A stretch of DNA of 32,587 bases from a filamentous cyanobacterium CCP2 (lineage in GTDB: Bacteria; Cyanobacteriota; Cyanobacteriia; Elainellales; Elainellaceae), in contig PVWD01000038.1 of assembly GCA_003003615.1 (NCBI GenBank), forward strand, positions 1-32,587, in the 5' to 3' direction. The notes below the pieces were generated by a model. It was not told the origin of the DNA. It did not search any database and saw nothing but the letters and a program-made list of their open reading frames with translations. The translations under genes and the position numbers were made by a program. Shown one piece after another: positions 18,095 through 20,131 of the stretch (the stretch's first letter is position 1; each line of letters starts with the position of its first letter).

Positions 18095-18477
18095 CGCTCA
18101 TTCTGCTCATTTGTGATGACTCATATGATCTGTTGTACCGCAAGAGAATCATTTTGCGCGATCGAGTAACAGTTTGAAAGGAATAGAAAGGTGTTCAGGA
18201 TAATGAATTACATCATCTGAGCGATGGTTGTGCTTGATTAACTGGGTGGTCATCTTTCCCGCTTCACAAGAATTCTAGTTGATTGAATAGGCAGGATTCT
18301 TTTGCCCTTATTTCAATTCGATTTGCTTTCCTTGCATCATCGTTTTACAGGCTGAAAAATGCTGAGGGGAATTCGTGAATGAGTACTCATTGGGCGATCG
18401 ATTTGAGCGATTTATCGTATCAATTTTGACTTGATTTCCTCAATCATTGGTGATAGGCTCAGCAACAGTCATCTTTT
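18095..18477. other. Intergenic region left of the structured leader
   Basis: AT-rich unique sequence between the divergent Uma2 gene and the small conserved gene. It should contain both promoters, but I could not pick out a convincing box. No gene, repeat or RNA was recognised. Confidence 0.4.
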
Positions 18478-18681
18478 TGGTTACACAGCCACAGAGGTGA
18501 TGGACGACCTAGAGGCGAAATTCTCTAGCGGAGGTCAAGCGTGGCCTGGCAAGCAATACGCTCAACCTCCTAACCACAGACTACTGAGGCTAGTCCGGGC
18601 TAGGGTGTATGATAGCACCCGATGCCTTCGACCTGCCCTGTCTGAAATTGAGGGCTAGTCTCTAGGGTTTCTTCAAACCCT
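18478..18681 (+). ncRNA. Candidate structured leader RNA or small RNA
   Basis: A chain of helices can be drawn by eye. TGGTTA (18478-18483) closes on TAACCA (18571-18576). CTAGAG (18509-18514) pairs with CTCTAG (18523-18528). GGAGGT-CA-AGCGT (18530-18542) pairs with ACGCT-CA-ACCTCC (18558-18570). GACTA (18579-18583) pairs with TAGTC (18591-18595). GGGTG (18603-18607) pairs with CACCC (18616-18620). AGGGTTT (18664-18670) pairs with AAACCCT (18675-18681). The last hairpin is just ahead of the AAGGAG of the next gene, so the element could be a cis-regulator (riboswitch-like) or a separate RNA. It matches no RNA class I can name. Confidence 0.45.
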
Positions 18682-18704
18682 GGAACACAAGGAGTTTCAT
18701 TCTC

Positions 18705-18953
18705 ATGTCTGATGAATTTATCAATATCCCGACGGGAAATTATCGCCCCGTCACTGCTTCACGTCGTTCCGTCAAAATCCTGATGATCGGACAACCGGAA
18801 GATGTGGAAATCACGATCGCCCGTTTGCATCAATGTAACTTCTGCCGAGTGGAGGACTGGTCAAAACCCTTACCCTTCTCCCAAATTCAGCAAGCTACCA
18901 CCAAAGAACCCGGAGAAATCATGCGAATCTACGTGCGATCGATGACCCTCTAA
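18705..18953 (+). CDS. Small conserved cyanobacterial protein of unknown function
   Basis: Soluble protein of 82 residues starting MSDEFINIPTGNYRPVTASR. The core VKILMIGQPEDVEITIARLH and FCRVEDWSKPLP looks like a small alpha/beta fold and, from memory, like a conserved cyanobacterial hypothetical family. I know no function and see no signal peptide, membrane helix or metal site. ATG 18705 is well placed: AAGGAG (18689-18694) is ten bases upstream. Translation is good evidence for a real gene because the ribosome site, HIP1-type codon context and sensible composition agree. The structured leader immediately upstream suggests post-transcriptional control. A REP-like hairpin follows. Confidence 0.75.
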   Translation: MSDEFINIPTGNYRPVTASRRSVKILMIGQPEDVEITIARLHQCNFCRVEDWSKPLPFSQIQQATTKEPGEIMRIYVRSMTL

Positions 18954-18992
18954 GTTAAGATGCACAGCAGTGCAGCCCCTATCTCTCTTGTG

Positions 18993-19013
18993 GGGTGGGC
19001 ATCTTGCCCGCCC
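18993..19013. repeat. Dispersed REP-like hairpin, copy 2
   Basis: Identical over 21 bases to 3093-3113. It lies 39 bases after the small gene's stop codon and could act as its mRNA 3' hairpin. Confidence 0.7.
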
Positions 19014-19093: not shown

Positions 19094-19142
19094 TGGGTAA
19101 TGGGTAATCGGTGATGGGTAATCGGTAATGGGTAATGGGTAA
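19094..19142. repeat. Heptamer tandem repeat (TGGGTAA, seven units)
   Basis: Seven head-to-tail units fit TGGGTAA: five exact and two with TCGG in place of TGGG, one of these also with G in place of A at the sixth base. Short tandem heptamers of this kind are common in filamentous cyanobacterial intergenic DNA. It lies just beyond the 3' end of the integron integrase gene, at the edge of the integron. Confidence 0.8.
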
Positions 19143-19165
19143 TTGGGGAGGAGGGGCGATCGGGT

Positions 19166-20131
19166 TTAGACATCCAGAGGACTGCGAACACCCTTGCCAC
19201 CTCGGTTGAGAACGTGAGTGTAAATCATCGTCGTTTTCACATCCTTGTGTCCCAACAACTCTTGGATTGTTCGGATATCGTATCCATTTTCAAGCAGATG
19301 CGTTGCAAAGCTGTGGCGAAAGGTGTGACAAGTGACTCGTTTCTCTATCCTGGCTCGTTTCACAGCTTCCCTCACCGCCCGTTGGATTCCCGTTTCATGG
19401 AGATGATGCCGTCGGGTCACACCACTGCGCGGGTCTTGAGAAAGACGTTCGGCAGGAAACACATACTGCCAAATCCAACTGCGATCGGCATGGGGATATT
19501 TGCGCTCCAGGGCAAAGGGCAAGTAGACCGAGCCATAACCCCGCTCCAGGTCTTGATGGTGCAACTGTCGCACGGTTTGCAGATGCGCTTGCAGGGGTTC
19601 AACCACACAAGCAGGCAACATCGTGACTCGGCTCTCTTTGCCTTTGGTATCTCGAATCACCAATTGCTGTTGAGCAAAATCCACATCTTTCACCCGCAAT
19701 GCCAATCCCTCACTCAAGCGTAGTCCACTGCCATAAAGTAGCTGTACGACCAGCTTGCATCCACCATACAAGTGATAAATGACTTGATGCACTTCATCGG
19801 GAGCCAAAACGGTGGGCAAGTAGCGCGACGGCTTGGCTCGAATTGCATCAACTCCAACTAACTCTTGCTGCAATACAAAACGGTAGAGAAAAACGATCGC
19901 ACTAAGGGCTTGGTTTTGAGTGGAAGCGGACACCTGTTCAGTGACAGCAAGATGGGTGAGAAACTGCGTTACTTCTGCTGTAGCCATCTCATTCGGATGA
20001 CGTTTATTGTGAAACAAAATGAAGCGGCGAATCCAGTAAATGTAGGTTTGCTCAGTTCGGTAAGAGTAGTGCTTCAGCCGCAGCACATCGCGCACTTGAT
20101 CGAGTAGTTTTCGGGGACGAGAAGGTTGCAT
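19166..20131 (-). CDS. intI: Integron integrase (IntI-type tyrosine recombinase)
   Basis: Site-specific recombinase of 321 residues that inserts and excises cassettes at attI and attC. The N-terminal SAM-like core-binding domain starts [20 protein letters not shown]. The catalytic domain has Arg in [11 protein letters not shown], the HxxR box in [14 protein letters not shown], His in LGHKDVKTT and the nucleophile Tyr in MIYTHV. The insertion [17 protein letters not shown] followed by [15 protein letters not shown] is the extra helix region that separates IntI from XerC/D and is needed for folded attC binding. It reads away from the cassettes, as expected. ATG 20129-20131 has GAGG eight bases upstream. 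A near-match to the cyanobacterial LexA box lies about 40 bases before it. Confidence 0.95.

Follow-up and report, generated by a model that had tools for sequence, protein, structure and literature searches.

A multicopy structured RNA family in the leaders of cyanobacterial small-protein genes and its candidate role in translational control

Organization of the locus and fold of the leader

The window analyzed here is the whole 32,587-nt stretch of contig PVWD01000038.1 from the filamentous cyanobacterium CCP2. On its plus strand, a structured leader RNA (18465-18704), delineated from its fold, the alignment of its copies and covariation, forms the probable 5' UTR of an ORF for an 82-aa protein (18705-18953) from an unnamed multicopy family of cyanobacterial small proteins. 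Upstream of the leader we read by eye a promoter-like element (18431-18459), which consists of TTGATT (18431-18436) and TAGGCT (18454-18459) with a 17-nt spacer and is absent from the output of a stricter consensus promoter scan. The transcript probably starts near 18465, right after this element, and a Shine-Dalgarno sequence AAGGAG (18689-18694) stands at the other end of the leader. Behind the ORF are a hairpin repeat GGGTGGGCATCTTGCCCGCCC and GGGTAAT-type short repeats (18990-19013 and 19095-19150) that are common to several copies of the unit, and a gene for an integron-type integrase (TIGR02249) adjoins the locus on the minus strand (19166-20131).

The initial annotation had described positions 18478-18704 as a highly structured leader, and this description holds: the predicted fold of this segment has an energy of -84.1 kcal/mol, none of 200 dinucleotide shuffles folded as low (shuffled mean -69.8 +/- 4.6, z -3.10), and the helices drawn earlier are present. 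The proposed span does capture the structured RNA but leaves out the 5' arm of its first helix, P0, in which 18469-18475 pairs with 18494-18500, as judged by visual inspection of the 17 aligned copies; P0 lies outside the covariance models, whose match to the window copy spans 18507-18693. The minus strand of the same segment likewise folds well (z -2.67), so that folding energy alone cannot decide between the strands. Three observations decide for the plus strand: covariation, the fixed spacing between the RNA and the start of the ORF and, as a weaker one, the excess of G-U over A-C pairs (102 versus 52, a modest argument since the underlying alignment A4 is model-fitted and thus partly biased).

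The body of the leader is enclosed by helix P1, the closing stem that had been noticed at first inspection, whose 5' strand CCUAGAGGC (18508-18516) pairs with GUCUCUAGG (18658-18666). Within it lie, in order, (i) P2, the long interrupted helix reported earlier (18530-18542 with 18558-18570), (ii) a pairing of UAACC (18571-18575) with GGCUA (18598-18602) around hairpin P3 (18579-18583 with 18591-18595), which has a variable loop, (iii) hairpin P4, GGGUGU-AUGAUA-GCACCC (18603-18620), with a loop that is AUNNUA-like in most relatives, and (iv) hairpin P5 (18624-18634 with 18645-18655). All of these helices and P1 are supported by covariation, and P2, P3 with its surrounding pairing, and P5 were also recovered de novo. 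The minimum free energy (MFE) fold of the window copy contains two further hairpins that compete with P1. One is a local hairpin at 18509-18528 (18509-18515 with 18522-18528); it is missing in the relative L049 and in other subfamilies, which leaves P1 as the family-wide helix. The other is the terminal hairpin CUAGGGUUU-CUUC-AAACCCUGG (18662-18683), the last hairpin that had been pointed out upstream of the Shine-Dalgarno sequence; it shares the 3' strand of P1, and the two structures are predicted to be mutually exclusive. In addition, UUUCUU (18668-18673) would be able to pair with the AAGGAG of the Shine-Dalgarno sequence when the terminal hairpin is absent.

Conservation of the structure and extent of the family

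The covariation among homologous leaders that the initial annotation proposed as a check is strong. In a model-fitted alignment of 39 sequences, 94% of the cells at paired positions are paired and 41 of the 46 base pairs have changed on both sides, while sliding the strands against each other reduces pairing to 36-49%; a larger model-fitted sequence set gave the same picture. Changes on both sides were found for 8 of the 9 pairs of P1 (with 97% of cells paired), 10 of the 11 pairs of P2, all 6 pairs of P4 and all 11 pairs of P5. Because model-fitted alignments lean towards the model, we also made an alignment with MAFFT only, from 25 relatives none of which had been used in building the models. 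On this alignment RNAalifold arrived at P2, the P3 region and P5 without guidance, and 18 of the 30 pairs were compensated. With P1 added, 22 of 41 pairs have changed on both sides and 93.8% of cells are paired; none of 500 shuffles scored as high or reached any of the five measures used, and strand sliding cut the pairing from 94% to 31-50%.

The letters of P1 differ widely among the subfamilies while its pairing is kept: the window's group has CCUAGAGAC/GUCUCUAGG, and others have CUAGAAGC/GCUUCUAG, CCUGGAGGCAG/CUGUCUCUAGG or CCCAAAAAUUU/AGUUUUUGGG. The conserved unpaired stretches are UAGCG, on the 5' side of P2, and the loop of P4. Two tertiary contacts were considered and rejected. A pseudoknot of CAGAC (18577-18581) with GUCUG (18640-18644) occurs in the window's group and is unsupported family-wide, with a mean complementarity of 3.57 among 102 distinct relatives compared with 3.35 +/- 0.085 for permuted partners. 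A kissing interaction between the P2 and P3 loops, looked for by eye, had no consistent complementarity.

The leader is one copy of a previously uncatalogued structured RNA family in cyanobacteria, and the finding is larger in extent than first supposed, a recurrent family rather than a single leader. A search with the leader DNA identified 17 copies at 78-100% identity in the same genome, and a protein search found the same small ORF behind leader copies there. We built a first covariance model, R1, from 14 of the copies in this genome and three from a second genus. Although built on nothing but these close copies, R1 retrieved full-length relatives in additional genera of the taxonomic family to which the window's genome belongs, and also in a second family (genome G240, E 1e-11). 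Each of these relatives directly precedes a small ORF, and the ORFs of G240, which were located through the RNA alone, encode distant members of the same protein family.

A second model, R2, had matches (E <= 0.01) in 100 of 390 genomes of the class, representing 50 of 160 genera. At most six candidates were scored per genome in this survey, so its copy numbers are lower bounds; fuller scoring of eight genomes gave 38 copies in the window's own genome and 27, 24, 13, 9, 7, 4 and 3 in the others. Among 30 mostly low-copy genomes that were rechecked, 29 were confirmed at E <= 1e-4; the match that failed was the one in the single f38 genome. When a further 194 genomes were drawn separately from the phylum, seven of them matched at E <= 1e-5, all in the window's own class. 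We found relatives on plasmids of Tolypothrix, Scytonema, Trichormus and Kovacikia, where the proteins are annotated as 'hypothetical protein' in the Nostocales and the Kovacikia match is unannotated. Scans of the genome contigs of named organisms and of viral contigs detected no relatives, and a phage origin was discarded after a phage search without a match. With a presence in about 100 of 390 sampled genomes, tens of copies in some of them and no entry in Rfam, this RNA would rank among the most abundant unexplained structured RNAs of the phylum.

The view of the initial annotation that the leader matches no known riboswitch or RNA class was borne out. Rfam 15 gave no matches at gathering thresholds for the window and nine distant relatives, and permissive scans returned only chance matches on the RNA itself. 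The nearest known kind is the group of Downstream-peptide RNA (RF01704) and the glnA or glutamine riboswitch (RF01739), which are, like the new RNA, structured 5' UTR elements of cyanobacteria (PMC2864571). The Downstream-peptide RNA also precedes short ORFs, of 17-100 aa and without a known protein family (PMC2864571). Unlike both, the new RNA has a core of about 190 nt with a long closing stem, and it had no match to either covariance model at any threshold tried; unlike those behind the Downstream-peptide RNA, its ORFs, dispersed in many copies, make up a single conserved family that is under purifying selection. Literature searches did not find the RNA, which may nevertheless overlap with the nearly identical multicopy transcribed sRNAs of Nostoc PCC 7120 reported in PMC4734099. 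In a recent survey that covered 26 bacterial genomes, cyanobacteria appear in the reference list alone.

Downstream genes and dispersal of the unit

Altogether we examined 127 RNA matches, of which 114 directly precede members of one family of 65-115-aa proteins, and nearly all ORF starts lie 1-25 nt past the RNA. The remaining 13 matches have no recognised family ORF, and some of them are at contig ends or frameshifted. In line with the initial annotation, the downstream gene encodes a small conserved protein, a member of this family. Among 16 copies from the window's own genome, the median dN/dS is 0.06 in the protein core, compared with 0.43 at the N-terminus, and this low value in the core indicates that the proteins are real and constrained. 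The family has no profile match above cut-off in Pfam, NCBIfam, PHROGs or PADLOC and no relative among solved structures; single-sequence AlphaFold2 gave an unusable model (pLDDT 48).

Three sets of exceptions were observed. In genome G142 one copy of the RNA (L122 1501-1704) lies directly 5' of an N6_N4_Mtase DNA methylase gene in place of the small ORF. In genome G055, with 28 matches, the RNA core stands at a longer spacing before different multicopy small proteins (L193-L202, L152) from two unnamed families, one of them weakly MarR/IclR-like. In family f11 (L159, L161, L169, L153) the RNA is single-copy per genome and has no downstream family ORF; a convergent oxidoreductase-like gene, read from sequence, adjoins it in three genomes, and in L169 a terminator-like hairpin and a T-run follow it.

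Some relatives of the protein occur without the RNA leader (L034, L042, L050, L055 and, on a Scytonema plasmid, L080 3336-4207), and a divergent XRE/HTH-like gene is found upstream of them instead. A group of units with 66-aa ORFs (L124-L143) has a conserved upstream dyad of the GATACGC...GCGTATC type at the -35 region, possibly an operator.

When the copies were aligned with their flanks, they agreed from the promoter-like element, which forms the conserved 5' edge, through the end of the ORF, and were unrelated further upstream. Thus the dispersed unit consists of the promoter, the leader of about 230 nt and the ORF. Two units in genome G029 are 99% identical over 538 bp in unrelated flanks, and in the 66-aa-ORF units, at 93-97% identity, homology ends at the stop codon. 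Such near-identical units in unrelated surroundings imply that the units move or are copied. In the G029 units L010-L013, the final 2-4 residues of the ORF products vary, and the variation sets in at the very point where the units cease to be homologous, as would be expected of a tail supplied by the DNA at the site of insertion. The integron-type integrase may be the vehicle of the units. A second full-length integrase gene, 70% identical to that of the window, lies beside another RNA unit (L014 77-1039), and truncated or internally deleted remnants adjoin further units in two genera (L016, L005, L021, L124, L126, L131); no recombination site was identified at the units.

A candidate translational switch and alternative explanations

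The initial annotation left a choice between a new cis-regulatory RNA and an independent small RNA, and both parts of this proposal gain support. For the window copy, the cis-regulatory option is favored by the regular position of the RNA in front of a conserved small-protein gene, and we consider it reasonably probable (about 0.64) that the leader is a new cis-regulatory element acting as a translational switch for this gene. Computation shows the RNA family, its structure and position, the strand that P1 and the terminal hairpin have in common, and the selection on the protein; regulation, an action at translation and the role of P1 as the moving part are what we infer in addition. In the proposed mechanism, the leader would have a promoter of its own and be transcribed as the 5' UTR of the small-protein gene, and P1 would close its 5' region into a compact multi-helix domain of P2, P3, P4 and P5. 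Alternatively, the 3' strand of P1 would form the terminal hairpin, which adjoins or covers the ribosome-binding site. By stabilizing or disrupting the folded domain, a signal (candidates are a metabolite, a second RNA and the protein encoded downstream) would then shift the balance between P1 and the terminal hairpin and change translation of the small protein.

Judged from predicted structures, the reuse of a P1 strand by a terminal hairpin ahead of the start codon is the layout of a translational switch. Across 82 leaders with P1 open, a mean of 69% of the 3' strand of P1 is predicted to pair within the terminal hairpin, and the ribosome-binding site is predicted to be less than 10% unpaired in 37 leaders, compared with one of 82 when the upstream letters were shuffled. 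Examples of terminal hairpins that bury the site are GGGAUUCCUU/AAGGAAUCCC and GGGUUUUCCU/AGGAAAACCC; for the window's own subfamily, the site is positioned immediately beyond the hairpin. With P1 formed, predicted access to the ribosome-binding site was higher in 12 leaders and lower in 9 (P = 0.08 overall), and a single switching direction was rejected on account of these mixed effects. The direction of the switch may differ among subfamilies.

What the domain would respond to is a separate matter. A small-molecule riboswitch of a new class is a tentative option, less likely than not: a conserved covarying aptamer-like domain in a probable 5' UTR is a feature of this kind of RNA, and the compact multi-helix fold, a closing P1 that overlaps an expression-platform-like hairpin, the conserved unpaired stretches (UAGCG before P2 and the P4 loop) and the occurrence of the same core before different small genes in G055 are all consistent with it. 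A metabolite riboswitch would however not usually occur in dozens of copies ahead of a single protein family that has no known pathway, and no pathway gene was found downstream.

Autogenous control, in which the small protein would turn translation off or on by binding to the leader of its own gene, as in ribosomal-protein leaders, appears somewhat unlikely. It would account for the joint occurrence of the RNA and protein families in 114 of 127 matches, for the presence of a leader on each paralogue of a small and strongly conserved protein, and for a structured leader overlapping the ribosome-binding site, a layout shared with the ribosomal-protein type. Unlike those leaders, the new RNA is found in dozens of dispersed paralogous units per genome, before an unnamed protein family. 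The exceptions in G055, G142 and f11, where the RNA precedes unrelated small proteins, a DNA methylase or no ORF, argue against the encoded protein as the only possible partner; some protein relatives lack the leader, and the unusable AlphaFold2 model offers no support for an RNA-binding fold.

A main role as an independent small RNA, with the ORF secondary, seems improbable for the family as a whole, since most copies have a ribosome-binding site at near-constant spacing to the start codon and the constraint on the ORF is stronger than a by-product would show. The f11 RNA, single-copy and without an ORF, next to a convergent gene in three genomes and with the terminator-like hairpin and T-run in L169, suggests that this option also occurs in nature.

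An equally doubtful proposition is that the fold is the DNA or RNA part of a mobile element, either an attC-like recombination site or a transposon guide or scaffold RNA. The units of about 510-540 bp have unrelated flanks even at 93-99% identity, integron-type integrases or their remnants adjoin several copies in two genera, as they would integron cassettes, and a tyrosine recombinase fragment adjoins a plasmid relative. The folded element, however, is found on the 5' side of the ORF, framed by promoter and start codon, rather than 3' of a cassette, which weakens the idea of a recombination site; unlike attC it is apparently co-transcribed and followed by a ribosome-binding site, and, unlike in integron cassettes, homology between units runs out at the stop codon or close to it, and no site was seen beyond. 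No terminal repeats or target duplications were seen, and the G-U pairs favor a plus-strand RNA. The units do resemble HEARO and OMEGA RNAs in being multicopy, with a structured RNA followed by an ORF in unrelated flanks. They differ from these in that the ORF, of 65-115 aa, is not a nuclease and the ribosome-binding site directly follows the RNA; the Rfam model of HEARO had no match on the window or its relatives, and the 82-aa ORF has no nuclease domain.

It is also conceivable, at long odds, that besides acting as a switch the RNA is the working partner of the small protein, the two forming an RNA-protein unit whose spreading cassette would reach from the promoter to the stop codon; the variable P3 loop would then provide copy-specific specificity, and stand-alone copies would keep the RNA's own function. 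The RNA also offers a way into a multicopy protein family that is just as unexplained, and with the copies, subfamilies and exceptions described above, its regulation, ligand and mobility can be tested directly in laboratory cyanobacteria.

As a separate observation on the surroundings of the family, two RNA units have CRISPR repeat arrays (L020 2913-3167 and L022 2874-3127) at a distance of about 1.2 kb.
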